Source: Lunularia cruciata
Lineage: Eukaryota > Streptophyta > Marchantiopsida > Lunulariales > Lunulariaceae
NCBI GenBank assembly: GCA_948567375.1
Contig: OX419755.1
Coordinates: forward strand, 8,375,001-8,439,000
DNA length: 64,000 nucleotides
Direction of reading: 5' to 3'
This document shows, one piece after another, positions 1-45,112 of the stretch. The notes under the pieces were generated by a model. The model was not told where the DNA came from. It saw nothing but the letters and a program-made list of their open reading frames with translations, and ran no database searches. Positions within the stretch are counted from its first letter, which is position 1. Every line of letters starts with the position of its first letter. A program made the position numbers and the translations under genes.

Positions 1-798
1 TAGGTTCACTATCTATACCTTCAATTTGTAACTCACTTTCCCCTAATAACTCATGTAACTGAACCGAAGATATTTATAGTCTAATCTTGCACTTCAGGTT
101 TATTCACTACTGTTATTTCTCTTCTAATTCTCTCATATCTTCAATCAAAACTAAAATTGAAGTCATGGGTATCCTAACTATCTTCTTTCCCTACTCTAAC
201 TTCATGTGATCCCTCTTGCAAAACTCTCAAATTCACCTTCACTGCACTCCGAGGTCCGACTTCCTCGGGTTGAATCATATTTGTCTTAAGGTAGTCTTTA
301 GACCCAAAGTCATGTAAACCCAAAGTCCGAAGTACAAAGTACGAAGTCACATTGACCCAAAGAACCTCAACCCAAAGTATATCTACTCCCAAAACTTCAA
401 ATGCTTGTTATTTCTTGTACAGACCTCCAAACTTTGCAATTTTGGTGGCAATGGAAAGCCTTGAACAAGACGCTTCCAACGAGATATATTACGCATGATT
501 TAGACTTGTGATCACTGAGATATGGCCACCGCAAGAATCATGACCTGCAACTTTTATTTCTCCTTCAGGTTTGCTCTCCTTCAACATCTTATCCAAGTTT
601 TTCCCTTCTCTGACACGAAGTAAGCTTCTTTGGGTTTGACTCAATTTGAGTCCTTCTTCCTCTAACACAAATTCAACTTCCTCAGGCTTGATGAAAACAC
701 AAGTTTCCACTCATTTCTTCTGCATTTGGTTTCAGTTTGGTTTCAGCAAGGCATTTCTTCTTCAAAACTTGTCCAAAATGAAAAATGTGGGTACCACA
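1..798 (-). mobile_element. A-short LTR, 5' portion, cut by window edge
   Basis: On the minus strand the sequence starts at 798 with TGTGGTACCCACATTTTT, the family A LTR start, and runs off the window at base 1. It aligns well with the plus-strand LTR at 7870-8600. Both share stretches not found in the long A LTRs, such as the one encoding KPEEVEFVLEEEG at 489-710. It interrupts the D-family LTR at 799. The other end and target duplication lie outside the window. No complete gene is present. Confidence 0.75.
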
Positions 799-1011
799 AA
801 ACCTAACTATTTTCAAGTACTAATTCATCCATTTATGCCTCCAAAAATAACTTTAAAGTTTTTAGGCTATTTTTTACTTCTGCTCTATTAGTAAAAGTAC
901 GCTTTTGGTGATACCTGTGTTTGATCTACCGAGCCCATTGTACACAACATCCTTCAAGATGTTACCAAGCCAATTTTCACCTCTAGATAACATGTCTATG
1001 CTTGTATTATA
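799..1011 (-). repeat. Family D 3' LTR, first ~213 bp
   Basis: This lies directly downstream (minus strand) of the chromodomain stop and a purine tract. It begins TATAATACAAG and contains one copy of a unit that is present twice in the related repeat at 14390-15187: GGTGAAAATTGG, TGGTAACATCT, GTATCACCAAAAG, then ACTAATAGAG. The A-short LTR cuts it at 799. Homology with the second copy supports LTR identity; the other end is not seen. Confidence 0.6.
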
Positions 1012-1026
1012 GACCTCTCTCCTTTT
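1012..1026 (-). other. Polypurine tract of D element
   Basis: The minus strand reads AAAAGGAGAGAGGTC immediately before the D LTR. It overlaps the TAA stop of the chromodomain frame. Position and composition fit the plus-strand primer site of an LTR retrotransposon. Confidence 0.5.
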
Positions 1027-1242
1027 AAGACACAACATCCTCATAGTGAAGTTGTTGCTCAAAAGATTGAACTAACATTGATGCGTTGGTCAAGTTGGCT
1101 ATTGGCTCCCATGTTGCCTTGTATAGTGGATACCCTTTCCAATGGACCAAATATTTCACACAAGGATGGCAAGTACCACGAATGCATTTTTGGAGAATAT
1201 GTTTGACCTCATTCTCCTTTGCCTCATCAATGAGGATTGGAT
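1025..1242 (-). pseudogene. Chromodomain, C-terminus of D-family chromovirus pol
   Basis: The frame encodes a chromodomain: VKHILQKC..., then KYLVHWKGYP, a TWEP motif and a C-terminal helix ending FEQQLHYEDVVS and a stop. YLVHWKGY and TWEP are the aromatic-cage core strand and helix entry typical of chromodomains. In chromoviruses this domain ends integrase and directs insertion to chromatin. Only this end is present because the B3 LTR interrupts upstream coding at 1243. The last ~20 codons of the longer open frame (MRDRSAH) are B LTR sequence, not gene. Minus strand, followed by a purine tract and LTR. Confidence 0.75.
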
Positions 1243-1683
1243 TGTGAGCCGACCTATCTCTCACTCAAGATGAACCTCTGATGGTATTATGATAGTGCAC
1301 CATGGACTAAGAAGGCAAAGAACCCCAACTCCATCATACTACTCCAAGGCTAACACTCCAAGACTCAAGATATTGCTCACTAAAGAACTCAATGAGAGAA
1401 AGATAGTTGCAAATGAAAGGATGATGAGTACTTTCTCACCCCTAGTTTATATACTTGTGATATAGTTATGCACCAAAGTTATTGTTTACCATAGTAGCTC
1501 AAGTAACTAGGCTAAAATTCAAGTAAATTCAAAAAGTATAAAGGAATATCCATCCACATGGGCATATTCTACTAAGCATGTGATCTTATCTTGACCCAAC
1601 TACTAAGTCAAAGATTCCTTCACATGGGCTATCCTTGGACTAAAATATCACAATACCACACACATGCACAAATGGGTGCTACA
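1243..1683 (-). repeat. B3 3' LTR (internally deleted)
   Basis: On the plus strand it runs from TGTGAGCCGACC to AATGGGTGCTACA, with TG...CA ends. It is 441 bp against 687-692 bp in the other B LTRs. The missing ~250 bp lies after TTGGACTAAA at about 1643, where full copies continue with AGAATC. The flanking bases GGAT at 1239-1242 are the only visible target-side sequence. Confidence 0.85.
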
Positions 1684-1731
1684 TTTACCTCCCAACTAAG
1701 TTTTCACTTTGTACTCAAAGTGAAGGTCTCT

Positions 1732-2392
1732 CTACCTTCTATGATACATTTTCAACTTATCATGGCTAATCCTATCAAAGTGTCTTCCTCCCAACTCCTT
1801 GAGATAATAGGTGTAATTGCCCCACACCTTCTCCATTATAAAAGATCCAAAGTACTTAGGCAAAAACTTCTTTTGCACTCTCTTGAATGGCATATAATCA
1901 AACAACACTACCCAATCACCTTCTTTGAAAGGCTCCACCTTCTTCTTGCCTTACCTCTTGTCATAGCTCTCCTTTTGTTTCCTTTGGGTTTGCTCCACTC
2001 AAACCATAGCAACTGCTCTTGCCTCTTCCAACTCCATGAGTTGATCCTCCTTTGACTTCTTTACATCAACTCCTTGTGCTTTCTTCAATCTCCTATGAAT
2101 GCTTTGGAAGGTAGGAAGATCAAAGTGAATAAGTAAAGTAGACTCAATACCATATACCAATTGAAATGGAGAATATCCGGTGGAAGTCTTCATGGTTATC
2201 CTATACTCCCACAAAATTGCATGAATCTTCTTATTTCAATGATGTTAAAACCCCTTCATTTTTGCATCTTTGGCCAACATCATGCACAAGGTCTGATTGG
2301 TTCTCTCTGCCAAGCCATTGGAATTTGGTTTATAAGATGTAGTTACTCTATGTATGATAGAGAAATGTTGTAGCATGGTTGTAGTGATGCTT
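1732..2392 (-). pseudogene. B3 integrase core and pol C-terminus
   Basis: Fragments in two frames match the B1/B2 integrase: GYSPFQLVYGIES after the catalytic core (1999-2214), then PFKEGDWVVLFD and KFLPKYFGSFIMEKVWG, ending KMYHRR and stop at 1732. The catalytic aspartates and the HHCC zinc domain are lost in the 2393 deletion. The second half resembles the C-terminal SH3-like segment of gypsy integrases. Non-functional. Confidence 0.7.
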
Positions 2393-3173
2393 CTTGTAAA
2401 CTCTCCTCCAAGATCTCATCAATGAATGGCAATGGGTAGTAGTACTTCTTGGTAACAATGTTGAGCTTCTTGTAATCCGTACATATTTGAAGCTTGCAAT
2501 TCTTTTGATTCACAATGACAATTGGAGACACCCATACTGTATTCTCCACCTCAAAGATAAATTTGGCCTCCTTGAGCTTATCAATCTCCTCCTTCACAAC
2601 CAAAGATATTGGTGGGCTAATGTGATGTTGCTTTTGGCGGATTGGTCTTGCATGTAACTCCACCTCTATCTTGTGCTTCCCAAAAGTGACTTCCTTCAAA
2701 TCATTGTACCTAAAAGTAAACACATAGATGAACTTGCGGAAAATCTCCTCAAATCTTACCTTCTTCCCCTTGGTAACATTTGGGCCATACTTGAGGGTAG
2801 ATAACCTCCTCTTTATCTCCTCAAGTGTCAATGATGATTTATCTGGGTCCTTCAAAACCTCTAGCTTAGGTGAAAAATCCATAGCATAGAAATAATTCAC
2901 ATCTAAATCAGATTCAGATTCAGATTCATCTTCCTCCATGGAAGTCTCCTCATCTAAGCTTGTGTCCACACCTGAAGCTCCTCCTGAATCTGATTCCCAA
3001 TAATCAGAAAATGATGTATCTGAATGTGAAGTGTTGGTAGTGTTAGTCATATGAGCTGTGACTCTATGGTTTGATGACCCAATCCTCAAGTACCCTTTGT
3101 GCCATTGATCAGTTGTGCGTGTTGCTCTCAACCATGGCTTCCCAAGAAGTAAGTCATAGCTTGAATCCTTCAA
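2393..3173 (-). pseudogene. B3 RT N-terminus and acidic linker
   Basis: From 3173 downwards the frame reads from the end of protease (LLLGKPWLRATRTTD) through a Ser/Asp/Glu-rich linker (SMEEDESESESD) into RT fingers: EVELHARPIRQKQHHISPP, then WVSPIVIV and KLQICTDYKKLN. It stops at FIDEILEE, where the deletion joins integrase. The YxDD box is missing. Compare the intact stretch in B2 at 27663-28934. Confidence 0.75.
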
Positions 3174-3630
3174 GACTTTGGAAATTCATGAGATTTTGAA
3201 CTCCCATAACTGAATCTACCACCTTATCCATCACCCCTATTGGTCAAACTTGTTGCTTGTTTACCATGCTCACCACAAATGTTAAAGGTCTAGAGGGTAT
3301 CATACCCAACTTCTTCATCAACCTTTTTGACATGGCATTCACTATTGATCCTCCATCAACCAATGCATCCTTGATGTTGTGACCATTCACTCTCACATCA
3401 ATCTTGGGAGCATATTCACAAGCCTTCCATGGTGTTGGCTTGGTATCCACCACCCCCATTGATACTAGAGCTTTTGCCTTCTTCTTCTTCTTGCTCCTTG
3501 CAAAACTCAGGCCATCTCTAAGCTCCTTTCTCAAAGTAGGATTCAAAGCAACTAGTTGGTCCATTGTGATATTAGCCTTGTGACTACCAACATCCTCCAA
3601 GACATTGTAGTTCATTGTTGCTTTGATATT
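3174..3630 (-). pseudogene. B3 protease region
   Basis: The retropepsin-like segment carries ALVDGGSIVNAMS (D-G-G-S, the family B version of the active-site triad) and KLGMIPSRP, preceded by basic KKKKKAKA. A frameshift near 3244 separates it from the linker downstream. Aspartic protease of the gag-pol polyprotein by position and motif. Confidence 0.65.
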
Positions 3631-4857
3631 AAGAAGTCCTCCATCCCCAACTTCTTTCTTGGAGTCTTCTTTGTTGATGGTGTTGAGGTGCTTGTGGGAG
3701 TTCTCCTAGTAGGCATAGGGGTATCTTGGCTAGGAGTAAATCATTGAGAAGAGTGCACATCCTCTGTAAAACGAGCTCTCTTCTTCTCTTGCACCAAAAG
3801 ATCCAAATGAAGAACTTTGGAGTTTGAGCACTCTCCCTTCTCATACTTGCTCTCAACCATATCTATGGAAGCTATCCCCTTACCTTTGTTTGGATTAGGA
3901 GCCACTTGGGCTTCACTTCCTCTCTCTTTCCCTCTATTGGCTCCTCATAACCCCTTCCTCCATGGTAAGTGAAATTTGGGCAATTCCTTTGGATATGGCT
4001 TCTTCCTCCACAACCAATTCACTTTCTATCATTGAAATTGTTGGCTGGTTGTCTTCCTCTATATAGATAGTTTCCATAACTCTTAGGCTCTCTCCCTAGA
4101 TTTTGATCAACCTCTCTCTTCTCTCATAGTTGCACCACATTAATCTTGAGATTTGCAAGTTGTTCTGTGATGGTTTGAAGTGGATCCTTTAGTAAAGGAG
4201 CAACTGGAGCAACTACTACTTGTGGTGCAACCCTTGTCACCAAAGTATCAGAAGTTCCACCATACTTCTTACCTTGAGGAGGATGCACAACCTCCTTCAC
4301 CACCAAATCACTCTCATCCTCTTCCAAACCCTCCTCCATACAAATTGTGATCTTGATAGCTTCAACCTTGGAAGAAAGTTTCTCATATCTCACCTTGCTT
4401 CTAATTTTTGGTCTTGATCCTCCCACAAAATTCTTGGTGAGCATGGCCTTATGCCAATCATAGTAGTCTCCACATCATCCCCACCCTTCCTCAACACTAT
4501 GCAAAATTTGGACTCTAACTTTTCCAGTCTTTCCACATAGACTCTCACTTTCTCTCCATCTCCTTGCTTGAGCAAGGTACTCTTACTCATAATCTCTCAT
4601 AACTCTTATCTGGAACAAAATTATCAATGAGTGCTAAAGTCAAACTCTCCCAAGACTCTTCTTGCCCATCTCTTCTCTCTCTCTTTTGGTATTCTAACTC
4701 ATACCATGTAGATGATGTATCCTTAATAAAATGGTAATAAAGAGGCCCAGTCATTCTTCCTCCTCTCATTGTTTCCTATGCAATCTCTCTTGAAGTCTCT
4801 CACAAAGGCCTCCACATCTTCTCCATCCTTGCCAAAGAAAACCAGAAGTTTCCCTAT
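3631..4857 (-). pseudogene. B3 gag remnant
   Basis: Broken frames match B1 gag: QGDGEKVRVYVERLEKLES, NFVGGSRPKIRSKVRYEK and the DLVVKEVVHPPQGKKYGGTSDT region. The start codon has decayed: where B1 has ATG (61554-61556), B3 reads ATA (4855-4857). The zinc-knuckle segment near 4000 is frameshifted. Non-functional capsid/nucleocapsid precursor. Confidence 0.65.
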
Positions 4858-4920
4858 CTTAACTCCTCACTATCTTTCTTTGCTCTCAAATTTTTTTCTC
4901 TCTCACTCTATAACTAATAG

Positions 4921-7797
4921 TGTGACAACCCGGCAACTATTACTTTTGCAAAAATCAGGTAAGTAAAATTCATTCCCGCAAAGATACAATTCAGAATTGG
5001 TCAAATACAAAGCAACAATAACAATCTCAATTCTTCTTGGTTGCATCTTTAGTCTCTTAGGTAGAAACTACACCTAGAACAGAGTAACAAGCACTGACTC
5101 ATAGTCTCATCACAAGTTAACGTTCATTAATCATAGCTCCATCAAACACTTGTCCAAACAATTCTTGATTGTGATGATTCATATTCTCCCAAAGACTACA
5201 CTTCATTGCTAAACAACTTTGTCTCAAAATTGTGTTCCACCCCTCCATTGAAGGCACAACTTCCTCAATCAAAATTGCTTCACATCAACATTGCATTGCA
5301 CTCACAACTACAGAATATTACCAACACTACAATTCCTCTTAGATCTGTCAAGGCATTGCTCCAATTGCACTACACTCAAGATCAAACACACAGAATGAAG
5401 ATCAAGTTTGTGGAATCCAACATCCAACAAACACACTGACTTGCACTTTAGAGTTCTCTAAATACTCACAATTGTAGAAACACAGAGTTGATACCCAAAA
5501 TCAAGCTCAAGCAACAAGCACTAAATTCAGCACTTTGCTTTATCTATCTTTAGAAATTATGACTTTTGAACAACATAACACTGTGAATGCCTCCTTTAAA
5601 TAGTAGAGCAATCAATAATTGCTAATAACTATACCGTTCTACAACAACTCTACAAACATGCAGATCCAAAATGATAATGCACCTCTTCATATCTGCCTCT
5701 ATATATCTCACAATTGTTACTACTCCGATCCAATGTCAACATCAACTTCGGCTTCCAAACCCAATGATACTCCTATTACTTTTCCTTCTTTGGGTCTATC
5801 TTCAATTACCAAATCCTTCACATTTTCTATTGCTTCTTCACTATGAACTACAATTGAGGTCATGGGTAACCTTTCTATCTCTTTATCTCCCAACTCACTC
5901 TTCTCTAATTTATTATAGAACAACTCCAAAGACACCTGTACTCCTACCTCTGCTACTTTGGACTTCTTATCTTCTTGCACACTACTCCTAAGACTCTCTA
6001 ACTCTGAGTTCACTAAATCTAATCCAAGACTTACATTGTCTCCTAGCTCCAACATCTTTCTATCTACTCTTTCTCTTAAACAAATTAGAAGAGTGTTCAT
6101 ATCTACATCTTTTGCTCTCCTCTTCCAAGTTTCTTGCACTAGCAATATCAATTTGTGCAGTCTTGCTTCCTCCAACCTTCCTTTAGACTCTGTGCTCAGC
6201 ATGGCTTGCAATCTTCCAACAACTTCTCCTACTAATTTTGATGCATACCCCCAAGATCGTTCTACCTTCAACTCTTCTTGGTACATCTTCAAATTGTCTT
6301 TGTACTCAACAACAAGCATCTTCTTCTCCTCCGCATACAGAGAACTATGTAGCTCAACACTTCTTACCAAGCCTCTCAATCTTTCTTCCTCTTGGTGTCG
6401 GATCGACAACTCTCTCTACCATGCTTGATCCTTTCCTCCTGCACTCTTCTTCAGGCTCTCTAACTCCTACTCCATCACAGCTGCCATCACTTTCACATGA
6501 ATACTCTTGATGTGAGCTTCACCGACATCCTCTTTCATCTTTGTCAACAACATTATTTGCCCCTTCAACTCTTTGGCTTGACAATGTATCTCTTTTCCCT
6601 TCTTCTCAAAACTCTCTTGCAAATTCTATAACGTCTCCTTCTTCAAGATTGCATCCACCCAAAGCTCCTCAACTTCTTCTTCTCTTTGGGTTACATTTTC
6701 CCGCAATCCCTTCACCTTGTTTAACAGATACTTCACCACTTGCAACTCATTCTTCACCTTCATATGATCTTGCAAGATTACCTTTTGCTGCACTTCAACA
6801 ACTCCAACAATGGAGTTACAATCTGCATTAAATATTGTACCCCCTAAAGCTCTCTTTGTCGTTGGCTCCATCTTTGTACTTGGTTTCTTCCACCAGTGCC
6901 TTCTCCCAAAGTCTTGATCTTCATACTTTTAGCGATATTGCTTTTGAGCTTTCTTCTTCCTTACCGGCTGAACTTGGTCCTGCAAGGTCTTCCATTGTTG
7001 ATTTCTTGTCTCTGCCTCCCTTCCGGTCTTCCTTCTTTGGCTTTGCATCCATCTGTTCCATGGCCAGTTATAAACAAGGATTATCTATTCCCTCCATATG
7101 GTCAGTTGCCACATGAAATGCTTCATCTTCTTCCGCTTCAGCCAATTGTTGAACTTCCTCTTCACCATCACTCTCATTTCTGGATTCCTCACTTTGTAGT
7201 ATGAGCTCCGCTTCTTCTAAGTCTCCTCCTCTGGACTCTATCTCTCCTTTAGACTCTATTTCCAATGTCTTCTCATTCACTACCTTCTTACCTTGTAGAG
7301 TAAGTCTTTGGGTCTTCTGTTGTGGTTGTGGTTGAGGCAACACTACATCTTCGGATCTAGTCTGCTTCTTTGTCTTCGGACTTCTTCCTTCCACCCGCTC
7401 TCTTTGTCCCGTTCTGGTAAAGTGATCATTGCTGGCTTGTTGATGTGACATGTAGTGCTACTCCTCTTCATCCACTTCTTGCTATAGATGACGATAGAAA
7501 TGTGACACCATGCAATGCCTCTCCTCCGCTGTTAGCAAATTCAATCCAAAGTAGAAGTGTGCTGCAAACGGTGTGAAGTAATGCGGAGGTGAATTGGTTC
7601 TCCAATTGATGATCATCTACCTTGTTCATTGGTGGAAGCAATTTGCCCAATTCACCTCCACTCTTGCAAAAATTTGGTGGAAGGAGACAACCTACTGCAT
7701 ATTCACATATGTCATTTGTTCGGGTTTGAACATGGCCATTATTGCTCCGACAATGCTTTATTTAATTGGGTCCCAATAGGACTCCATTTTGTAATCA
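4921..7797 (-). mobile_element. Family A LTR, 5' truncated, in B3 leader
   Basis: It starts at 4921 with TGTGACAACCCGGC, the reverse complement of the A LTR end. It is inserted after AATAG (4916-4920). Homology continues to about 7797 and then stops inside the U3 reading frame, so the LTR's first ~750 bp are gone. Bases 4921-5719 hold the R-U5 part and TATA region with no gene; 5720-7797 hold the U3 reading frame. No matching target duplication is seen on the damaged side. Confidence 0.8.
5720..7797 (-). pseudogene. U3 reading frame, C-terminal three quarters (copy b)
   Basis: This is homologous to the U3 frame of A1. The mobile-domain-like stretch is present but broken (7468-7650). Then follow the acidic/basic middle (RERVEGRSPKTKKQTRSEDVV, EEAELILQSEESRNESDGEEE) and the coiled-coil C-terminus (RVDRKMLELGDNVSLGLDLVNSELESLRSS), ending DVDIGSE and stop at 5720. 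Stops and frameshifts break it. Its N-terminus is missing with the truncated LTR. Function unknown. Confidence 0.65.
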
Positions 7798-9024: not shown

Positions 9025-9701
9025 GAGTGGCATTCGCAATATTATGTTGTTCAGTGCCCATAATTTATGAGAATAGATAAAGCAAAGTGCTATGAAGCAG
9101 TGCTTGTTGTTTGAGCTTGATTTCAAGTATCAACCTTGTGCTTGTGTTTGTGAGTGTCTAAAGAAATTCAAAGTGCAAGTCAGTGTGCTTGTTGGATGTT
9201 GGATTCCATAGCCTTGATCTTTATTCGGTGTGTTTGATTTTGAGTGAATTGCAATTAGATCAATGCTTTGATAGATTTGAGAGGAATTGTAGTGTTGGTA
9301 GTATTTTGCATTTGTGAGTGCAGTGCAAAGTTGATGTGAAGCAATTTTGATTGAGGAAGTTGTGCCTTCAGTGGAGGGGTAGAACACAATTCTAAGGCAA
9401 AGTTGTTTTGCATTGAAGTGTTATTTTCAGGAGAGCCGAATAATCACAATCAAGATTGTTTGGAAAGATTTGATGGAGTTGTGATTAAGAAGTGTTAATT
9501 CGTGACAAGACTACAAATCAGTGCTTGTTACTCTCTTCTAGGTGTGGTTTCTACCTGAGAGACTAAAGAAGAACTCAAGAAGAATTACATTGTTACTGTT
9601 TGCTTCATGTTTGACCAATTCTGAATCGTATCTCTGTGGGAACAAACTTTACTTACTTGATTACCACAAAAGTGATATTTGCCGGGTTGTCACATGATTT
9701 T

Positions 9702-9720
9702 TGGCACCGCTACCGTGGAT
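9702..9720 (+). other. Primer-binding site, tRNA-Asp type (C1)
   Basis: TGGCACCGCTACCGTGGAT begins seven bases after the LTR. It resembles the complement of plant tRNA-Asp 3' ends (TGGCGCCGTTGCCGGGGA) and the A1 and A2 sites, with several transitions. The next ~35 bases still resemble the A1 leader before C-type sequence starts. Confidence 0.6.
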
Positions 9721-9780
9721 ACAATTGTCAGGAGTGGAAGGCTATGAAGTGCAATTTCTGCCCTTACTTCTGATACAACT

Positions 9781-10395
9781 ATGGCTACTTGGATTGAGCA
9801 GTTGGCAAAGATTGGCTAGTATAGCTATTGCTCAAAGGAGATCAGATTCGGGTGTTGAGGCTTCTACCTCATATGTTGGTGATAGAGATGCTTTGGATTT
9901 CATGTACGGAGCAGCACAAGTGGATGAATTTGTAGCAATAACTAGGAGTGCAGTACATGCTCTAGAGCCTAGAGGAGCATCAGTAGAGTTGGACCCACAA
10001 AGAGGAGAGGTTGAGAGATAGGTCAGACTTCCTCAGTCTTTCACACTATCTGAGGCATTACGGACGACATCCATGGTTCCTAGACGTCCTAGTGTAGGAG
10101 TTAGGTGGTGATGGAGTGCATGATAGACTACCTACCAATCAACACCTACTACTACATAGACTGAGTCTAGCATGATGTTGGGGGTGGCTCAACTAATGAT
10201 GCGGTGTCCTTTGTTTTTGGCCAGTGGCATGTTTACATTAGCCCCAGTGTTCTAGTTGGATGCCACACTTTGTGAGAGTAGGGATGATGTGGTTCCTACT
10301 TCTAGAGCAAAGGTGGTTGGTAGTGGAGCTGGCTTGGTTGAGGAGCATGAGATCCGTTCAGTGACCAATGGTTATGGCAGGCAGCAAAGGCTAGA
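9781..10395 (+). pseudogene. C1 N-terminal (gag-like) region
   Basis: An ATG at 9781 lies 79 bp after the primer site, close to the 81 bp of A1. The frame is short and shifts, but conserved stretches such as YVGDRDALDFMYGAAQVDEFVAI-like and VRLPQSFTLSEALRTTSM follow. The later part, PLFLASGMFTL and LCESRDDVVPT, matches C2 at 63812-64000. No zinc knuckle is visible. Gag is assigned by position only. Confidence 0.45.
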
Positions 10396-10692
10396 GTGGA
10401 AGAGTTGCTAGCAAGACCAGCCTTTGAGAGAGCACGGTTCACACATGGTGTTGTCTTATTGGATAACTATTGGAGAATTTTCCGTTTGGTGGGACCACAA
10501 AGAGTCTTGTTAGACTCTGGTGCACAACCCCTTATGTTGGGGAAGGCGGCAGTGGTCAATCTAGAGTTACGGAAGACCGATGTGGAGAGGTGTCCATTTC
10601 AGATCCAGACATCTCTAGGTGGTGGTTTGACATAGTACATCACATGTGGGGAGCTTGTTGTCCAAGTTCAGCTTGGGCATCCGACTGATAGC
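10396..10692 (+). pseudogene. C1 aspartic protease
   Basis: The frame contains RVLLDSGAQPLMLGKAAV, a retropepsin active site (D-S-G-A) with a following hydrophobic strand. Upstream, FERARFTHGVVLLDNYWRIF is conserved in C2. One TAG at 10633-10635 lies between this and the downstream domain, which is in the same frame, so protease and methyltransferase appear to belong to one polyprotein. Confidence 0.7.
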
Positions 10693-12190
10693 TTGGTGGT
10701 GAGAGCTCAGGGTATTGCAACAATAGCTGAGTCATATGATGTGCTAGTTGGGAGAGCAATGTTATACCCCATGGGTTTCAACATTGACTATTGGGAGGAG
10801 ACAACCTCCTATAGACCCGATTGGCAATTTGGTGAGGGATGGGTATGTCGCCTACCAGTATGCTTCAGTAGTGGCAGTCTTGGCTCACTACAGTTTGGGA
10901 CCATGGCAACATCAATTTTAGCTTTCAGTGGTGCAATTACTTGGCCTAGTGACTTGTTGGAGGGGAACGCCCATGGAGAGGATACTCCAGTACCAGAGGA
11001 GATCACTCAGATTTGGAGTACAAGTAGGATTGTTCCATCCACCTTAGATGTTCCATTATGGAGTTCAGAAGAGGCATTGCAGCAACATGTAGATCAATTG
11101 GTGCAACAAGCTTGGAGTGGAGCCTTTGTACCATCAAGAGATGAGTGTGAGGATGAGCCTCCAGAGTTGATTACTTTGACACCTCTAGATACCACATTCA
11201 TTGCTTGGCAGTATCCAGCAGAGAGGATATGTCTATTGGAGTTGTTCGGTGGGATTAGCACCGGACTAGCTGCGGTATTACAGGCGGGTATACGAGTATA
11301 GAGGTACTTGTATGTAGAGAGAGATGAGATTGCTAGGCAAGTCTCTCTACATCAATGTGGCACACTTGGCCCATCCATATCTAGAGTTATTATCAATGTC
11401 AGTAGTTAGAGGTTACCAAAAGGCTCTACCAACATACATTTCCTTACTGGGAGTGCATGATCTGGAGAGACATGGGCCTATTCACTTGGTGATTTCTGGA
11501 TGGCCATGCCATACACGTGCTAGTAGAGGTTTGGGTCTTCATGATCCTTGTTTTGGTGTGTTTTGGGAGATGTTACAGATACTATGACATCTCCAAGTTC
11601 ATCAGTCCGTTTCTCTAGCTTACTTTTTGGAGATTGTGCCTTTGATGGGTGATTCTTGCACCAAAGTGGTGGCGATTACACATCAGGTCTAGTCTTGGAT
11701 GGGACCTGCTGTATTGTTAGATGCAGCCATAATGGGATCACAGGCTCATCGTCTTCATCTTTGGTGGACAAACCTCTTACTTAGAGAGGTTCTATAGCGT
11801 GCTTATGATGGGATTCAACAACTTGACCACATCCTTGTTGATGATATCTTGGATGTTGGGCGTTAGTCTTAAACAATGGTAGTGGCTGATAGGTCATCTA
11901 TGGCAGTGGTGAACCTAGTTGGACAGCCTAGAGCCGCATTTCCTACACTCATGAGTTTCCTAGGCTCTCATGCTTTTTGAGAAGGAGGACCTGGACTAGT
12001 TTGGGACTCACAATTATAGCAATTGATGGAGCTCAATGTTGATGAAAGAGAGCGGGTGATGGGTTTTTGTACCAATATTACCATTGTTCTAGTAGTGTCA
12101 GAGACATCCATGCATCAAGTGTTAGGTTAGGCTATGGACCTAAACTATTTGACATGGATTATGAGCCTTGGCTTTGTAGAGCAACATAGG
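10693..12190 (+). pseudogene. C1 DNA cytosine-5 methyltransferase domain
   Basis: A transposon-borne C5-methyltransferase in canonical motif order. Motif I LELFGGISTGLAAV is at 11239-11277 (AdoMet binding). Motif II YVERD is at 11311-11325. Motif IV is GWPCH with the catalytic Cys codon at 11507-11509, followed by GLGLHDP and FGVFWEM. Motif VI is degraded to FLEIVP at 11624-11641 (C2 has LLENVP). Motif VIII is AHRLHLWWTN, within 11732-11779. Motifs IX-X are LNVDERERVMGF at 12032-12067 and MDLNYLTWI from about 12134. About 170 codons upstream (AQGIATIAESYDVLVG, GFNIDYWEE) are C-specific. Stop at 11299 and a frameshift near 11400; dead copy. Motif order and the PC/FWEM context favour DNMT3-like over DRM or MET1. 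Confidence 0.85.
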
Positions 12191-12600
12191 ATGCGCTTGA
12201 TAGGCATCACCACTCGAACACTTGTGAGCCTTGTGCCTATCGAGACGATTCAGGCACATGCTAGGGGCAATGGACCAAGTGGACATGGTATTCTTGGGAC
12301 ACAGCTAGTAGCTACTAGGGAGAGTGGTCTATTTGGAGTCCATCTAGGTGAGTGTGGGCTACTTGGAATACATCCTTGGTTCACTTGGCATGTAGCTAGA
12401 GGACGTGTGGAGCTTGCAGCCAGAGTGGAGGGAGTTTTTCACACAGAGGTTGGGATCTCTAGTGGTCAAAGGCATGACACTATTGCTCCCAAGGGCCCAA
12501 TGTAGCAGCTAGTCAGTACGTCTTCTACTCCTACTATAGTTACAGAGGATACTTGGGTGCTAGATCTTGAACCAAGCTTACTGGAGAGGAAAGATGGAGG
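12191..12600 (+). pseudogene. C1 linker between methyltransferase and RT
   Basis: A Gly/His-rich stretch with a degenerate repeat (GILGTQ, GLFGVHLGE, GLLGIHPW) is followed by ELAARVEGVF. C2 has the same linker at 50770-51050. No known domain recognised. It probably connects the methyltransferase to RT in the polyprotein. Confidence 0.5.
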
Positions 12601-13540
12601 GTTTGGAGGTTCTTGAGGAGCCACACAAGTTGTTTTGTCTTCAATATGAAGGATTTGGGTGCTCTAAAGGGGCTTGGTATATGAATTGAGCTGACTAGCA
12701 ATACACCAGTTTTTTGATGTCCTTATCAATATAGTGAGATGGAGAGGACATTGATTCAAAGCCACAGTAGTGACCTTTTTGAGGTTGGTTTGGTGGAGAT
12801 TTCACATAGAGAGTATGCATCAACAACAGTGATGCTAGCCAAGAAGGATATGCATGGCAACTACACAGATAGGCAGATGTGTGGAGATTACCGTTCTATC
12901 AACCAATAGACCAGGGCTGATCGTTATGCCATGCCTACACCGGAGGAGATTTTTGATGCAATTGGGCATGCAAAGGTCTTCAGTACTTTGGATCTTAGAG
13001 CGGGATATCATCAGTTGCCAATCAAAGAGGAGGATAAGTCCAAGACAACATTTTGGGCTATTGATCCTCACGGCAAGGATGTGTTATATCAGTGGAGGTT
13101 CTTACCATTTGGATTAAAGAATGCTCTTGCTGAGTTTTAGAGGGTCATGGATAGGTTCCTATTTGGATTGGATTTTGCTTGGTGCTATATTGATGACATT
13201 TTGGTCTATAGCACTACTGTGGAGGAGCATGAGAGAGTTGTTGGAGGTGTTTGAGAGGTTGAGATCTCATGGACTCAAATTACATCCTGGGAAGTGTAGG
13301 TTCTTCCACAAGCAGGTTGAGTATTTGGGTCACACTATCTACCCCGGAGGACTTGGTGTTCAGCAAACCAAGGTAGAGGCTATTGCATGTATTCCTTGGC
13401 CTATGGATGTGAGTAGAGTGCAAGCATTCCTTCGGTTGGCAAACTTCTATTGCTGCTATGTTAGAGGATTTAGTGCCATTACCAAGGCCTTGGCAAAGTT
13501 GACCAAGCTTACACAGGAGTGGTGTTGGGGAGATGAGCAA
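12601..13540 (+). pseudogene. C1 reverse transcriptase
   Basis: RT blocks in order: MERTLIQS, LVEISHREYAS, MCGDYRSIN (fingers), DAIGHAKVFSTLDLRAGYHQ (palm, first Asp), LPFGLKNA, and the catalytic YIDD at 13186-13197. Then LHPGKCRFFHKQVEYLGH and the thumb. Stops at 12908 and 13138 and a shift near 13240 break it. Ty3/gypsy RT by block pattern. The RT part largely shares the protease frame. Confidence 0.8.
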
Positions 13541-14085
13541 GAGAGAGCTTTTGTAGAGCTCAAGGAGAGGTTGATATTTGCTCCTATGTTGAGGAGACTG
13601 ATCAGAGGACGACCATTTAGGTTCATATTGATTGGAGTATGTTGGGGCTTGGAGCGGTGCTCACCCAACATGATGATGAGGGGAAGGAGTTTGTGGTGGC
13701 CTATGCTAATCGATCCAACAATTCAGCAGAGGCAAAGTATAGTTCATATGAGGGAGAGTGCTTGGTAGCAATTTGGGCAGTAGCACATTTTTGATGTTAC
13801 CTTTTTGGTAACCCCTTCACTCTCATCATTGATCATCAGCCACTAAAGTGGTTGATGGAGTCCGACAAGCTTTCAAGGAAGCTTGCACGATGGGCTTTGA
13901 TGTTACAGGAGTATGATTTCACGGTTGTTCATAGACCTAGAGTTATGAACCGTGATGGAGATGGGTTGAGTAGAAACCCATGTCCTAGCCAGCAAGATCA
14001 GATTGGAGCACATTGGCATGGTGAGACAGATGAGGAGATGGTGTCAGGTTGGCATGCATTGGTCTCTTTGTGTATATTTTCATAG
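13541..14085 (+). pseudogene. C1 RNase H
   Basis: Gypsy RNase H: the first strand is shifted (GVCWGLERC), followed by YSSYEGECL with the catalytic Glu, TLIIDHQPLKWLM with the catalytic Asp in DHQ, then ARWALMLQEYDF and DGDGLSRNP (connection end). A TGA at 13792 and frameshifts are present. C2 49100-49708 is the same domain in better shape. Confidence 0.75.
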
Positions 14086-14389
14086 GCTCTGGTAGTATCT
14101 CTCATATCGCATACAAGAGGAGTTATTGAGGTCACATATCCAGAGAGTGAAGATATTGGTACAATTCAGCGAGACATTCATGATGATGTCTTAGTGATGG
14201 ACTATCTTTACACTGGTGTTGTGGGTGGCATAGTTGGGGCCAAGGATAGAGACCATACTACCTCCTGAGATCACCTTGAGGCAGAGGGCTTAGCAGAGAG
14301 AGTGGTTTAGATGGTGAAGAGAGGATTGCAAAAGTATGGTTTGTAGAGAGGCCACTTGGGAGATTGAGATCTCTTGTTACCTTGGTTGG
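14086..14389 (+). pseudogene. C1 integrase remnant, part 1
   Basis: After VIEVTYPESEDIG and DDVLVMDYLYTGVV (matching C2 upstream of its HHCC domain) the sequence jumps to HLEAEGLAERVV and QKYGL, the end of the DDE core including its Glu region. The zinc domain and most of the catalytic core are deleted. It ends DLLLPWLV, where the D-type LTR begins. Confidence 0.6.
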
Positions 14390-15187
14390 TGTAATACCAA
14401 GAGCTAGCCATATGATCTAGATGTGAAATTTGGTTTGGTAACATCTAGAATGATGTTATACATGATGGTCAAAATAGATTAAATAGAAGTATCACCAAAA
14501 GAGTACTTCTACTAATAGGGCAAAAACCAAAATAGACTTGAGAACCTTAGAACCAATAGCTAAACATATGACTTAAAGGTGAAAATTGGTTTTGTAACAT
14601 CTAGAAGGATGTTACGCATGATGGACTAAGCAGATCAAAAAGAAGTATCACCAAAAGGGGACTTCTACTAATAGAGTAGGAATCGAAAGATGCCTGAAAT
14701 CTTTGAAGGCAATTTCAAAGGCCTAAATGGATGAATTAGGCCTTGAAAATCTGTTGATTCACCCCACAAGCTAGCCTCCCTTCCCCATGCTTTGTCTCAT
14801 CGAGAGCTTTCCAATGGTACCTTATGTGATTCTGAGATTCCTACAGGAAGATTCCCTAAAAGATTCTCTCTGGTCTAGGTCCTATCTGGTTGTTTGACCA
14901 ACCAGACATGTCACCCATCCAAGTAAGTAATCCAAGGGTGGAGCTTGCTGACACATCACCTATTTGTGTGCCTAATCCCATGGTGGAGCTTCCTTGGAGG
15001 AGATCCTCTTTGTCTATATAACAAAGAGAAGGTGCTCCTTTGGAGCATCGAATGTTTAAGGTGTAATCTATTTTTCTCTCTTCTCTTATCCTCGGAGTAT
15101 TACCGTCGGCCATGGGCTATCGGTTCAGCCGGCAAGCCTCCTTAGCATCATTCTCTCCATACTTTCTACTCTGTGGACGAGATCCAG
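14390..15187 (+). repeat. D-family LTR (solo or fragment) in C1
   Basis: It begins TGTAATACCAAG and matches the D LTR at 799-1011 in plus orientation. Two ~155 bp tandem units (about 14425 and 14580) repeat the GGTGAAAATTGG...ACTTCTACTAATAG block. The second half carries a TATA box and a CT-rich leader. The right end at about 15187 is inferred from where C1 integrase coding resumes (QDATVVLDWDDP). No clear target duplication. No gene inside. Confidence 0.5.
15015..15021 (+). promoter_or_regulatory. TATA box in D-type LTR
   Basis: TATATAA is followed 20-60 bp later by a purine/pyrimidine-rich start region and CTCTCTTCTCTTATC. Upstream are imperfect direct repeats (ATCCAAGGGTGGAGCTT and ATCCCATGGTGGAGCTT). 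This fits an LTR promoter. Confidence 0.5.
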
Positions 15188-15352
15188 ATTTACCTATAGC
15201 CATTTGTCAAGATGCTACTGTAGTTTTGGACTGGGATGACCCTGATGTATGGATGAGCGCATGTTCCTAGTGGGCAAAGATCTTTTGGAGAGCAATGCCA
15301 ATGGCTTTTGAAAACTTGATGATTGCTCAGCATAGAGATAATTTATGCTATG
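15188..15352 (+). pseudogene. C1 integrase C-terminal remnant, part 2
   Basis: The frame reads QDATVVLDWDDPDVWMSAC, a TAG, then WAKIFWRAMPMAFENLMIAQHRDNLCY, at which point the A2 LTR begins (15353). The AFENLxIAQHRD stretch typically follows the integrase core in elements of this type and precedes the basic C-terminal domain. The PHD part of C1 is outside the window. Confidence 0.6.
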
Positions 15353-31365: not shown

Positions 31366-31567
31366 AGTCAAGTACATCTAGGATATAACCACTGTCCTTG
31401 AGGAACCATTGTGAGGGGAGGAGTCATACATGCCATATGCCATCCTCTTGAACAGCTATCACACACTAACATAGTAGCAACTCTACCATAAGAGCCACAT
31501 AACATACACCTCAAGCTTGCACGTACAAGTGCCAAGCTTGGGTCCATAGTACCATCAATGTTTGGGA
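31366..31567 (-). pseudogene. C2 pol C-terminus: PHD finger (3' portion)
   Basis: Reading across A1 (from 45174-45113 into 31572 downwards) one frame continues: LVLEGHDVVVWKDHMHNCAPCH, LPNIDGTMDPSLALV, then CMLCGS, MLVCDSCSRGWHMACMTPPL and VPQGQWLYPRC, followed by TGA at 31366-31368. The C-x2-C, C-x2-C, H-x2-C, C spacing with W before the last pair is the PHD Cys4-His-Cys3 pattern; one late Cys is Tyr (WLYPRC). PHD fingers read histone H3 tails. Here it replaces a chromodomain at the end of pol. Frame open across the joint. Confidence 0.8.
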
Positions 31568-31572
31568 GGTGG
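31568..31572. other. A1 target-site duplication, left (GGTGG)
   Basis: GGTGG directly before the 5' LTR. Identical to 45108-45112 directly after the 3' LTR. Gives exact element borders. Confidence 0.95.
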
Positions 31573-31986
31573 TGTGGTGCCCACATTTTTTGTTTTTTTT
31601 CAAAATAAAGGAGAAGAACTGTATAGAGAAGTCGGATTGCGCCTGTTTGGCCGAAGAAGACAAAGAAAACTGTCTTCGGGGTGAAACCCAAAGTAAAGTG
31701 ACTTCGGGTCATAAGGCAAAGTACTCTGAAATGCCGTGTCAGCATACAATACAAAGTAAATTGTCTTCTGCTCGGGGGGAGCTCAACCCGAGGCAAAGAC
31801 AGTCTAACAACCTTCCGTCGGGGTGAGAAATTCAAGAAGGGGCCGTTTCAAAATTGGCGGCTCATACGCACGAAGGTGGGGCGACAGTGACAGGTGCATG
31901 CCGGAGGTGTGATTTCTTGGTAGAAACTCAAAGTGACGGAAGATGAAGAAGTGCAACTCTATAAAAATCAAAACTGCAACGACGAA

Positions 31987-34560
31987 ATGTCGAGCAATTT
32001 TCCTTTGCCATTGAGGAGTCGTCTTGCAAGTGATCGGGGAAAGGGACATAGAGTTGGACTCGTGTTAGTGCGTAAGGGAGAAGTTGAGAGAGAGAAATCG
32101 AGAGACCGAAAGAAAGCAGAAGAGATGGGAGGAGGGAAGAAGAACTCCGAATTTGCAGTGAGAAATCATGCAATTTGGAGATTAGATGTAGTAGCGAGGA
32201 TCGAAGTCTTGAGCCGACTTCGGATCACCTTTCTGGCATGGAATTGGAACGTAAGTTTTCCAGGATTCATGATAGAAATCATGGAGAGTAAATGTCTCGA
32301 TGGTCTCGAGGAAGAAGGGAAGAGATGAAATCCGGCTCGCTGGATAGAGTCGGATTGGAGACTCGTACTCGGAAAGGAGGCAGGCTCGGAGCAGGGAGCC
32401 ACGTTCTTGGGGAAAGGAGAGATAGCTCAAGAAACGCAGGAGGTGAGAGAAGCCTTCTCGTCAAAGAGGACAAAGAATGGGTATAAAGTTGAGAGTTATA
32501 AGGACCCAGTGAGGAGGGGAATTGTGAGTGCACTAATGGCCCTCCTGAAGCCAGAGAGAACTACCTATGTGATGAAACACCAAGCGGTGTTCTTTCACAA
32601 GTTATTTGCAGGAGAACCGATAAATTGGGCAAGGTGCTTTCACGGAAGAACGAGGCAGATGGTGTGGAATCTGCGAGATAAGTCGCCTCCACACTATATC
32701 GTACCATTTGCAACCCACTTTTACCTCGGGTTAAATCTGCTCAATGTGGCTGAGTGTAATCAAATGGTGTCTCATTTCCATCCTGATTTGAGAAGAGAAG
32801 TCGATGCGGAGGAGCAGCAATACATTCTCTAAATCCGGAGCACAGATGATCACTACGCAAAGACAGGGAAGAACATGGAGCTCGTTGAAAGTACCCCAAC
32901 GAAGAAGAGAACTCGACAAGCAGACGCCAAAGAAAACAAGAAACCTTGGAAGATGCAAAAAAATAACCCGAGGCGAGGAATGGTGGTGATTGAGTCGGAA
33001 GATGAAGACTCAGAAGGCGAAGCCGAGCTCAAGACGGAGGACTTGGACCGTGAGGAGGAACCTGAGCTGACACTGCAGAGTGGAGATACAAGCAGTGACA
33101 GTGAAGACGGTGGAGAAATGACCTCGGCACGAGTGGCTGAAGAATACGAAGAAGAAATTCAAGCTGAAGTAAAAGCCAAAGACAATGCGGCGCTGGAAGA
33201 CGAAGTACCGGTGCTAGAGGAGAAGAAGATCGCAGTATAGCGAGGAATTTGCTCGAGACGTAAGGCGAAGTGTGAAGCGGGACCGAGTAGAGTGAAGGAA
33301 GAGGTAGAAGGAAGCTCGGGCAGTGAGGCATCAATTCTGATACAAAGACTCCAGAGAAGAAGGCGAGTATCGGGAGAACACAAAGAAAGAAGAGAGACTA
33401 CTCCGCGGGAGGAGGAAGGTATCAGTAATGGAGAAGATTACCTGCAGATGGTAGTATGTCCGCTGTTGGTGAAGTTGGAGAAGAAGAAGAAGGAGATGCA
33501 GTCGACTTGTCCAGAGGTAAAGACTGTATTGCAGGTGGTATCGAGATTAGAAGAAGAAAACTCGGAGTTGAAGAAGAGTATAACCCGAGGTGAGAAGGAG
33601 AGAGAAGTACTGCCAGCAGAAGCAGTGGAGAGAAGTTAGGTAATCGAAGACCTGAAGAGAGAAGTGAGCTATCAAGAGGATCTTGCGAGGAAGAGTGACG
33701 TCGTAAGGGAGAGACAAGTAGCTGAATTTGAAATCTTGAAGCAGCAGTTTGCTGATTCAAGAGTAGAGCTCATCCATGCTATGGCGAGGGTAGCATCGAA
33801 GGATCAAGAGCTCGATCGAGTGATGGAGAGTATGGAGGAGAAGAAGCAACTTTGGCAGCGAGAGTTGGCTACGAGATATGGAGAAGAAGAGAGATTACGA
33901 GACTAACTTTGTAATCAGGAAGAGAAGGTTGCACAGAAGGAGAAAGAGAAGGACGCGGTGAAGGCTGAATTCGAAGAAGAATTGGCGATGTACAGAGAGG
34001 AATGGCTTGCAGATCGGGAACGAGAAAGGAAGACAAGATTAGAGCCATTGCAGGAGATAGTCCTCAGGGTAAACGCGATGTTAAGTACAGAGACCAGCAT
34101 TCGAATTGAAGAAGCGCGTCTGCACGAGTTGAAGCTTTTGGTGCAGGAGACGAGGCGAAGACAAGCGAAAGATACAGATATGAATGCCTTGTTGATTAAA
34201 TTGAGAACTCGTGTAGATAGGAAGATCTTAGAAGTAGAAGACAATATCGCGATTAGATTAGACTTAGTAAGAATAGAGTTAGAAAAGCTTCGGCAGGATG
34301 TTAAAGCAAAACCCAAAGTAGATAACATCGGGATCCAAATGTCCTCTGAGTTGCCCTCAGCGACAGTAGAGAAGAGTGGGTCGAAGGATGAGGAGTTAGA
34401 TAGATTACCCGCTAGTGCAATTTCAGATCAGGAAAGAGAATTGCTGGATCTGGTAGAAGATGTAGGAGTTGTGAAACCCGAGGACAGAGTAGTAGGAAGT
34501 AAGATTACTTCGGGTTCGGGTTTGAAAGCCGAGGAAGAAGTAGACATTGGATCGGATTAG
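31987..34560 (+). pseudogene. U3 reading frame, 857 codons (A1 5' LTR)
   Basis: One frame from ATG (MSSNFPLPLRSRL) to the stop after EEEVDIGSD. Parts: basic N-terminus with KAEEMGGGKK; a globular region of about residues 55-280 with FLAWNWNVSFPGF, DWRLVLGKEAG-like, YKDPVRRGIVSALMALLKPE, QAVFFHKLFAGEPINWARCFH, RQMVWNLRDKSPPHY, FYLGLNLLNVAE; a Lys/Glu-rich middle; then about 400 residues of charged coiled coil ending RTRVDRKILEVEDNIAIRLDL. Five in-frame stops (32326, 32830, 33238, 33637, 33904), none shared with the 3' LTR copy. No signal peptide or membrane segment. Function unknown. The globular part is vaguely like plant mobile/transposon-associated domains (weak). Confidence 0.75.
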
Positions 34561-34677
34561 TAACCGATTTGAGATTTGAAGGGGCAGATATGAAGAGGTG
34601 CATTGTCATTTCGGATCTGCAGGTTAGAATAGTTGATGTAGAAACGATATAGTTGTTAGAACTGTCAATTGCTTCAC

Positions 34678-34684
34678 TATTTAA
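34678..34684 (+). promoter_or_regulatory. TATA-like box of A1 5' LTR
   Basis: CACTATTTAAGAGTGG, conserved in every A LTR that keeps this region. About 675 bp from the LTR end, so U3 is ~3.1 kb and holds the whole reading frame; transcription would start near 34710. Assigned from sequence only. Confidence 0.5.
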
Positions 34685-35361
34685 GAGTGGCATTCGCATG
34701 AAATTGTTGTTCAGTGCTCATTATTTCTGAGAATAGATAAAGCAAAGTGCTGTGAAGTAGTGCTCATCGCTTGAGCTTGATTTCGAGTATCAACTTTGTA
34801 ATTGTGTTTGTGAATGTTTGGAGAAATTCAAAGTGCAAGTCAGAGTGCTTGTTGGATGTTGGATTCCACAGCCTTGATCTTCATTCTGTGTGTTTGATCC
34901 TGAGTGAAGTGCCATCGAAGCAATGCCTTGACAGATCTGAGAGGAATTGTAGTGTTGGTAGTATTCTGCATTTGTGAGTGCAGTGCGAAGTTGATGTGAA
35001 GCAATTTTGATCGAGGAAGTTGTGCCTTCAGTGGAAGGGTGGAACACAATTCTGAGGCAAAGTCGTTTTGCAGTGAAGTGCCGTTTTTGGGAGAGCTTGA
35101 ATCATCACAATCAAGATTGTTTGGAAAGATTTGATGGAGTTGTGACTATGGAGTGTTAATTTGTGACAAGACTGCGAGTCAGTGCTTGTTACTCTCTTTT
35201 GGGTGTGGTTTCTACCTGAGAGATTAAAGACGCAACCAAGAAGAACTGAAATTGTTACTTTGCTTTGTATTTGACCGATTCTAACTTGTATCTCTGCGGG
35301 AACGAACTTTACTTACCCGATTACTGCAAAAGTGATATTTGTCGGGTTGTCACATGATTTT

Positions 35362-35380
35362 TGGCGCCGCTGCCGGGGAT
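35362..35380 (+). other. Primer-binding site, tRNA-Asp (A1)
   Basis: TGGCGCCGCTGCCGGGGAT is complementary to the 3' end of plant tRNA-Asp except for one base (GCTGCC for GTTGCC). Seven bases after the LTR. tRNA-Asp priming is known from Athila/Tat elements. Confidence 0.85.
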
Positions 35381-35442
35381 ACAAATCTCAGAAGTGGAAG
35401 AATACGAAGCCAAATTGAACACTGGGTATCAAGGCAATATGA

Positions 35443-41508: not shown

Positions 41509-41517
41509 GGGAGGGGG
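41507..41517 (+). other. Polypurine tract of A1
   Basis: GAGGGAGGGGG overlaps the pol stop codon by two bases and lies two bases before the 3' LTR. Confidence 0.85.
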
Positions 41518-45107: not shown

Positions 45108-45112
45108 GGTGG
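45108..45112. other. A1 target-site duplication, right (GGTGG)
   Basis: GGTGG directly after the 3' LTR, identical to 31568-31572. Confidence 0.95.

Follow-up and report, generated by a model that had tools for sequence, protein, structure and literature searches.

What does a retrotransposon gain from carrying the enzyme that is used to silence retrotransposons? The question is raised by a 64,000-nucleotide stretch of the genome of Lunularia cruciata (GenBank assembly GCA_948567375.1, contig OX419755.1, positions 8,375,001 to 8,439,000 of the forward strand), here called the window, with positions counted from its first letter. On its plus strand, at 11227-12170, a DNMT3-like cytosine-5 methyltransferase is flanked by a retropepsin on the 5' side and by a Ty3/gypsy reverse transcriptase on the 3' side. 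The best explanation, which is quite probable when taken as a whole together with the mechanism described below, is that two copies of one Ty3/gypsy family with a DNMT3-type methyltransferase are present in the window, both of them decayed. The layout of this family is gag, protease, methyltransferase, UAG, reverse transcriptase, RNase H, integrase and PHD finger, an order that can be given with high confidence.

In copy 1, the motifs that the original prediction had named from the letters alone are found at their places and in canonical order between the retropepsin and the reverse transcriptase. LLDSGAQ of the protease lies at 10510-10530, followed by FGGISTGL (11245-11268), YVERD (11311-11325), GWPC (11498-11509), AHRLHLWWTN (11744-11773), DERERVMGF (12041-12067) and MDLNYLTWI (12134-12160) of the methyltransferase and YIDD (13186-13197) of the reverse transcriptase. 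The protease and methyltransferase motifs I-II share frame 0, so the claim that the protease and the N-terminal part of the enzyme are in one frame holds; the frame changes near 11360, and motifs IV-X are in frame 1. The copy is broken, with frame 0 stops at 10633 and 11299 and eight frame 1 stops between 11357 and 12502. The element of copy 1 reaches far beyond the interval 10693-12190 to which the prediction referred. Its parts are listed here, some of them by comparison with L001, a related element with open reading frames (ORF1 and ORF2) that is described further below.

9833-10087, plus strand: linker downstream of gag, where the preserved part begins (tblastn; residues 5-61 of the Sphagnum protein P0011 match 9833-10009 at 51%, residues 55-140 of P0023 match 9848-10087 at 47%)
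10375-10960, plus strand: retropepsin-like protease region (LLDSGAQ; tblastn; RVP_2 at E 0.28)
11227-12170, plus strand: DNMT3-like methyltransferase domain (motifs; phmmer against PDB; related proteins)
12503-12511, plus strand: TAG CAG CTA, candidate leaky stop at the boundary between methyltransferase and reverse transcriptase, in the same place as TAG CAA TCA at 3489 of L001
12577-13624, plus strand: reverse transcriptase (PF00078, RVT_1, E 9.5e-12; tblastn with L001 ORF2, 54-57%)
13501-14253, plus strand: end of the reverse transcriptase, RNase H and start of a linker (PF17917, E 1.1e-31; 49% to L001 ORF2)
14251-14391, plus strand: integrase remnant (L001 ORF2 residues 771-818, 65% by tblastn; about 190 residues upstream are missing)
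15109-15351, plus strand: second integrase remnant, cut by a long terminal repeat (LTR) that starts at 15353 (L001 ORF2 residues 818-898, 59%)

The kinship of the methyltransferase is visible even in this damaged copy. When its two pieces were compared by phmmer with 177,635 distinct PDB sequences, all 25 matches of the N-terminal piece (motifs I-II) were DNMT3A, DNMT3B or DNMT3C (best E 0.095), and the 13 matches of the C-terminal piece (motif IV on) at E<=10 consisted of 12 DNMT3B chains and one unrelated sequence (best E 0.018). Each of these E-values is weak alone, but two pieces in the right order point to one enzyme family, and chance is therefore not the explanation. Against proteins, 12 matches of the C-terminal piece reach E<=10; E<=3e-58 is reached by 11 of these, and six carry a precomputed PF00145 assignment. 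A profile called A2 was built from seven sequences and used to score 8000 candidates, admitting no protein more than 1.75 times as long as the query (about 826 amino acids); it gave 437 related proteins at E<=1e-3, the best 120 of which are considered below. Compared with PDB, A2 matches 52 sequences at E<=10. The top 29 are DNMT3A, DNMT3B and DNMT3C (E 2.6e-15 to 4.5e-9), followed at 1.1e-5 or worse by DRM2, HhaI, DNMT2, HaeIII and one unrelated protein, and the 52 include no chain that goes by the name of DNMT1 or chromomethylase. In plant DRM enzymes motifs VI-X lie ahead of I-V, and DRM2 matches the first 128 positions of A2 in the C-terminal part of its chain alone. In copy 1, and in those aligned relatives whose sequence covers the domain, the motifs run from I to X unpermuted, and because of this unrearranged order the enzyme is not of the DRM type. 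The regulatory domains of host DNMT3 are PWWP and ADD; no such Pfam domain was found at E<=1 in pieces of the L001 reading frames or in six relatives. The matches of both halves and of the profile confirm what had been predicted from the motifs, namely a non-permuted DNMT3-like C5 methyltransferase, as judged by sequence, inside a Ty3/gypsy polyprotein.

Among the relatives, the catalytic residues are mostly kept. Counted over aligned rows and given as the top three residues per column, motif IV has Cys in 83 rows (Tyr 2, Trp 1), motif VI has Glu in 95 (Lys 10, Gly 2) and Asn in 107 (1 and 1 for the next two), and motif VIII has its first Arg in 88 (His 17, Cys 6) and its second in 97 (Gln 8, Cys 2). 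Copy 1 has lost residues of the methyltransferase motifs, with EIV for ENV and HRLH for HRPR. An organism name is attached to 12 of the best 120 of the 437 related proteins, and all 12 come from mosses and liverworts: Sphagnum troendelagicum (two), S. tenellum (one), Calypogeia fissa (five), Marchantia polymorpha (two), M. paleacea (one) and Riccia sorocarpa (one). In a tree of the methyltransferases (122 rows, of which 39 were removed for low coverage and 83 kept, host DNMT3 sequences not being included) the copies of the window pair as sisters (support 1.0). They fall inside a clade with sequences from Sphagnum, Calypogeia and Marchantia, where their place next to Marchantia paleacea and Riccia has a weak support of 0.28-0.30.

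Copy 2 lies in the same window on the minus strand, from about 64000 to 31374, and was found by tblastn and blastn. It is split by nested LTR insertions into the blocks 64000-63806, 56653-55728 and 52003-49024, the last of which shares 88.5% identity with copy 1 across 3012 bp and spans methyltransferase, reverse transcriptase and RNase H. The domain order is protease, methyltransferase, reverse transcriptase, RNase H and integrase, and the gaps are due to the nested insertions; the integrase core is cut at about 48457 by LTR sequences of a third family (31564-48455).

63806-64000, minus strand: linker, running off the end of the window (blastn 82% to copy 1 10183-10365)
55728-56653, minus strand: protease to start of the methyltransferase (blastn 85.4% to copy 1 10356-11257)
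50992-52003, minus strand: methyltransferase domain (blastn 88.5% over 3012 bp from copy 1 11253; tblastn with the related protein P0016)
50759-50767, minus strand: TAG TAG CCA where the candidate leaky stop would lie (alignment; position counted by hand)
48457-50722, minus strand: reverse transcriptase, RNase H, integrase zinc finger and start of the integrase core (PF17917, 1.5e-32; PF17921, 7.3e-11; match to L001 ORF2)
31374-31560, minus strand: PHD finger following the integrase, beyond the nested insertions 31564-48455 (PF00628, E 4.9e-10; 56.5% to L001 ORF2 residues 967-1034)
52003-55728, minus strand: solo LTR of 3.7 kb, foreign to the element, inside the copy 2 methyltransferase (5-bp target duplication GATTA)
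56653-63806, minus strand: LTR retrotransposon of 7.15 kb, foreign to the element and nested in copy 2 (terminal repeats of ~687 bp, 98% identical)

Copies that lack the methyltransferase had been named beforehand as the mark of a one-off capture of a host gene. The one further copy seen, copy 2, has the methyltransferase, and a one-off capture is rejected by this copy together with the related proteins.

How the element is laid out when its frames are open can be seen from L001. This is contig CADCWO010000201.1 (9285 bp), filed under a Synechococcales metagenome-assembled genome and the single confirmed locus of a scan of prokaryote genomes. It is taken as mis-binned eukaryotic DNA, because its long reading frames are those of a retroelement. 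Its ends overlap by 72 identical bases, as would be expected of a circular assembly path through one LTR. ORF1 is open from 3 to 3491 (1162 amino acids) and contains PF00145 at E 3e-12, as well as a zinc knuckle (E 0.008) and an aspartyl protease (E 1.8e-4) that are both weak and under the Pfam cut-off; a frame that starts with ATG at 8609 enters the end overlap. ORF2 continues in the same frame from 3492 to 6635 (1047 amino acids) with reverse transcriptase, RNase H, integrase and a PHD finger (E 4.3e-10). The layout is thus gag, protease and methyltransferase, then UAG CAA UCA, then reverse transcriptase, RNase H, integrase and PHD finger in the same frame, and the window matches it piece by piece except for gag and the integrase end. 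ORF2 is 50-61% identical to copy 2 in reverse transcriptase, RNase H and integrase and 56.5% around the PHD finger, as against 25-39% to the other gypsy elements of the window. In both copy 2 and L001 the integrase follows RNase H, giving the order protease, reverse transcriptase, RNase H, integrase that is typical of Ty3/gypsy. A bacterial or phage origin is without support: scans of viral contigs with methyltransferase alignments and with the L001 reading frames gave no viral relative of the element, and the prokaryote genome scan confirmed L001 alone out of seven pattern matches.

These comparisons also bear on another account, in which a single decayed gypsy element took up a host methyltransferase pseudogene, or had one land next to it, as an accident of the locus. 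Such an account would fit the decay of copy 1, its left edge, which as far as about 9757 looks like LTR and primer site of a different family, and the failure of PF00145 to detect copy 1, but it is refuted by a second copy with the same order and by L001, with open frames from gag to PHD finger. Open protease-methyltransferase or methyltransferase proteins in Sphagnum and Calypogeia also speak against it, and an accident is extremely improbable.

Elements with another domain order exist as well. In P0012 the methyltransferase follows RNase H, and in P0061 it is followed by the integrase zinc finger and the start of the integrase core, so that the enzyme sits between RNase H and integrase and not before the reverse transcriptase. 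From this it could be argued that the bryophyte family and these elements captured similar DNMT3 genes separately. However, in RNase H and integrase P0012 and P0061 resemble L001 ORF2 (55% and 40%) more closely than they do the other gypsy elements compared (39-40% and 26-30%). Their methyltransferases match that of L001 at 36-41% over about 330 residues. One lineage in which the methyltransferase has moved is therefore simpler, and separate captures are unlikely.

The stop between methyltransferase and reverse transcriptase is found at the same place in all three elements, as TAG CAA TCA in L001 (3489), TAG CAG CTA in copy 1 (12503) and TAG TAG CCA in copy 2. The sequence UAG CAR YYA is the leaky stop context of tobacco mosaic virus, or plant-virus type. 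The stops of L001 and copy 1 fit it, and that of copy 2 resembles a decayed version. One of 101 TAGs in L001 and one of 807 on the plus strand of the window have this context, each at the methyltransferase/reverse transcriptase boundary. By pattern search, 53 of the best 120 relatives reach motif X, with tails beyond it of 4 to 266 amino acids; the tail is exactly 93 amino acids long in six relatives (two of them Calypogeia), 108 in four and 141 in three, and a reverse transcriptase motif is present in one of the 120, a Riccia gene model. Such tail lengths would fit a fixed stop after the methyltransferase. Readthrough of the UAG is probable. In murine leukaemia virus the protease lies downstream of the stop. 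There, an in-frame UAG divides abundant Gag from Pol, and its readthrough is stimulated by a pseudoknot (PMC5009743). Unlike in that virus, the stop here follows protease and methyltransferase and has the UAG CAR YYA context.

The PHD finger beyond the nested insertions of copy 2 is assigned to the element because L001 ORF2 has the same order and matches it at 56.5%. PHD fingers read histone tails, and many of those matched here bind histone H3 that is unmethylated at lysine 4; the nearest PDB entries are CHD4, PHF12, UHRF1, KMT2C/2D and KDM5, and the matches also include ATXR5. The possibility that the finger is the ADD domain of the captured DNMT3 was considered and rejected, as no DNMT3 chain is among the best 60 of 82 PDB matches, nor among the best 60 of 71 in another PDB comparison. 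Chromoviruses are Ty3/gypsy elements whose integrase carries a chromodomain that guides integration. The element resembles them in having a histone-binding module at the integrase C-terminus, here a PHD finger (PF00628) instead of a chromodomain. PHD fingers are also known from CR1 and L2 long interspersed nuclear elements (LINEs), mostly in ORF1, and have been proposed to aid targeting (PMC4120745, seen in part). Those are non-LTR elements, and the description of them seen there has no methyltransferase. The original prediction was right about a methyltransferase inside a gypsy polyprotein; the second copy, the stop between methyltransferase and reverse transcriptase and the PHD finger were missing from it.

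The layout suggests how the parts could work together. The methyltransferase lies upstream of the candidate leaky UAG and is therefore probably made with Gag, and reverse transcriptase and integrase by readthrough. Translation would mostly stop at the UAG, so that the methyltransferase, joined to Gag and protease, would be made in structural amounts and packed into the particle, and occasional readthrough would add reverse transcriptase, RNase H and the integrase with its histone-reading PHD finger. Within the particle and near the complementary DNA (cDNA), the methyltransferase could methylate CG sites of the new double-stranded cDNA before or at integration, and the PHD finger could bias where the integrase joins this cDNA to chromatin. 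New copies would then be methylated from the moment they join the genome, would escape sensors of unmethylated DNA and would stay quiet until the methylation is lost. Methylation of cDNA before integration has been proposed for dinoflagellate DIRS elements, and SymbioDIRS-Dnmt3 domains methylate CG de novo in yeast (main text of PMC5890265). Self-methylation of cDNA is the simplest role for the enzyme and may be its selected function here, a possibility that falls somewhat short of probable. The kept catalytic residues, and a layout that predicts the amount and the site of the enzyme (in the particle, with Gag), make cDNA self-methylation directly testable.

Several observations weigh against the element and its mechanism as laid out here. 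Gag was not seen in the window, and the PHD finger has been shown in two elements only, L001 and copy 2. On the methyltransferase pieces of the window Pfam PF00145 stays above E 10, and the protease piece reaches E 0.28 with RVP_2. The original prediction had named the lack of any match to C5-methyltransferase profiles as evidence against it, and in this respect it fared unevenly: the profile misses the window pieces because the copy is decayed, but the cut-off is passed by four of six relatives (P0001, P0003, P0010 and P0011, E 2.4e-6 to 4.3e-9) and L001 matches at E 3e-12; P0012 is under the cut-off at E 0.031, and P0009, which is without the motif IV part, has no match. As for the stop, TAGCARYYA also occurs in two of 920 minus-strand TAGs, neither at the boundary of copy 2, and the number expected by chance is 1.7 on the plus strand of the window and 0.17 in L001; it is therefore the common place of the stop, not its count, that is the evidence. 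Proteins longer than about 826 amino acids lie outside the A2 search, so long fusions of methyltransferase and reverse transcriptase may be missed. For this reason the tail lengths are weaker support, and the confidence placed in readthrough was lowered slightly. Within the methyltransferase, the two copies differ about equally often at the three codon positions (41, 39 and 44 differences), and no purifying selection on it is therefore visible in the window. Two other regions are even as well (12, 9 and 12; 14, 12 and 13), and among the four regions compared a third-position excess appears in the start of the reverse transcriptase alone (6, 4 and 17). Finally, the KnitGypsy-Dnmt3 and SymbioLINE domains were inactive in yeast, a result that the authors call inconclusive (main text of PMC5890265).

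This last result would also suit a different role, in which the methyltransferase acts on the RNA of the element, as DNMT2 acts on tRNA, or serves mainly as a nucleic-acid-binding part of Gag, with DNA methylation not being its task. Its place with Gag upstream of the stop, where RNA-binding parts belong, agrees with such a role. On the other hand, the A2 profile is DNMT3-like, scoring DNMT2-type chains at 23.0 bits against 59.5 bits for DNMT3, the catalytic Cys, Glu and Arg are mostly conserved, and the methylation of CG by SymbioDIRS-Dnmt3 domains is on DNA. An RNA or binding role is quite unlikely.

Both window copies are dead, and their decay keeps a record of methylation. Between 11253-14254 of copy 1 and 49024-52003 of copy 2, transitions affect 40 of 94 CG sites (42.6%), 79 of 178 CHG sites (44.4%) and 125 of 1166 CHH sites (10.7%), so the rate at CG and CHG is roughly four times that at CHH. 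This is the expected mark of decay at cytosines that were presumably methylated by the host. It could be asked whether the methyltransferase itself silences the element in cis after integration, as a self-restraint that spares the host, instead of hiding the cDNA. The concentration of transitions at CG and CHG is indeed the mark of methylated, silenced DNA, but host maintenance enzymes give the same pattern on any silenced plant transposon, and a selfish element would hardly retain a trait by which its copy number falls. Silencing in cis is unlikely. The transition record speaks for silencing of the copies and not for the element's own enzyme, the comparison being between two methyltransferase-bearing copies alone. 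Copies 1 and 2 also have three stops at the same methyltransferase codons, which may reflect repeated deamination or a common ancestor that was already dead.

The original prediction had cited retrotransposons with DNMTs from dinoflagellates and Klebsormidium, and this is borne out by de Mendoza et al. 2018 (PMC5890265), whose main text is the basis of the following comparison. KnitGypsy-Dnmt3 of Klebsormidium nitens is a Gypsy element with a DNMT3-type methyltransferase whose Ka/Ks is below 0.2. It shares with the element described here a non-rearranged DNMT3-type methyltransferase in a Gypsy Pol polyprotein of a streptophyte, present in several copies and with key residues kept. None of the protein matches was identified as a K. 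nitens sequence. KnitGypsy-Dnmt3 has a DIRS-like repeat arrangement and its DNMT in the Pol reading frame, and as far as the main text allows a comparison the domain orders may be the same; in the present element the methyltransferase lies between the protease and a candidate leaky stop, and a PHD finger follows the integrase. The SymbioDIRS-Dnmt3 and SymbioLINE-Dnmt elements of Symbiodinium are alike in being retrotransposon-encoded DNMTs, of DNMT3 type in SymbioDIRS, with two domain orders that coexist, but they are DIRS and LINE elements, whereas here it is an LTR Gypsy element with a DDE integrase. The words PHD, moss, Physcomitrella and Sphagnum are absent from the main text of that paper, where bryophytes appear once, in connection with host DNMT3. 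In the wider literature, judged mainly by titles and the openings of abstracts and with little coverage of preprints, no other account of LTR elements with a DNMT from bryophytes or vascular plants was found, nor was a PHD finger on a gypsy integrase in the literature on retrotransposon PHD fingers, as far as it was covered. Thus DNMT-bearing Gypsy elements as a kind are known from KnitGypsy-Dnmt3, and the bryophyte family, the leaky stop and the PHD finger appear to be new in the literature searched.

The bryophytes in which the family is found include genetically tractable liverworts. With a PHD finger attached to its integrase, one selfish element would combine a reader and a writer of chromatin marks. 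It is conceivable, although somewhat unlikely, that this is an old bryophyte-wide lineage with its own writer and reader, a methyltransferase made at Gag level by means of the leaky UAG and a PHD finger on the integrase, which would act together by marking the element's own cDNA and picking chromatin that tolerates the mark, the pairing being older than the split between mosses and liverworts. So far one alga has been the example from the plant lineage (main text of PMC5890265), to which Sphagnum, Calypogeia, Marchantia and Riccia are now added.

The original prediction took the genome to be like that of a vascular plant, which is not supported: the named methyltransferase carriers given above are all bryophytes, and another gypsy reading frame of the window, unbroken at 40024-41508, is nearest to liverwort elements. 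It matches 786 proteins at E<=1e-20, and 10 of the 11 that have a name or tag among the best 120 are from liverworts (Riccia five, at 53-76% identity; Marchantia three, 56-66%; Calypogeia two, 52-56%). A protein tagged PITA, which we take to mean Pinus taeda (pine), reaches 38%. Taken by themselves, these comparisons make a liverwort the probable host, perhaps one of the complex thalloid group; Riccia belongs to the Marchantiopsida.

The long LTRs at 31564-35354 and 41520-45107 belong to a gag-pol gypsy element and are unusually long (~3.6-3.8 kb), with aligned parts that are 95.5% and 97.7% identical. They contain open reading frames (33907-34560, 41871-42386 and 42633-43652) with no Pfam family match at E 0.1. 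On the 5' side of copy 1, at 9502-9790, lie an LTR end, a primer site and a leader that may be those of this same family, and the similarity between the two leaders fades near a common TATG...TGGATTGA. Copy 1 may be a chimera, or it may have its LTR in common with the other family; both copies of the window are truncated at their ends. That its left LTR shows copy 1 to be a gag-less element was considered and rejected, since the leader is like that of another family and a deletion may have produced the junction. At the other end, two tandem units of 156 bp that are 78% alike (14396-14707) adjoin the integrase remnant of copy 1, and they are similar to 809-998 on the other strand.

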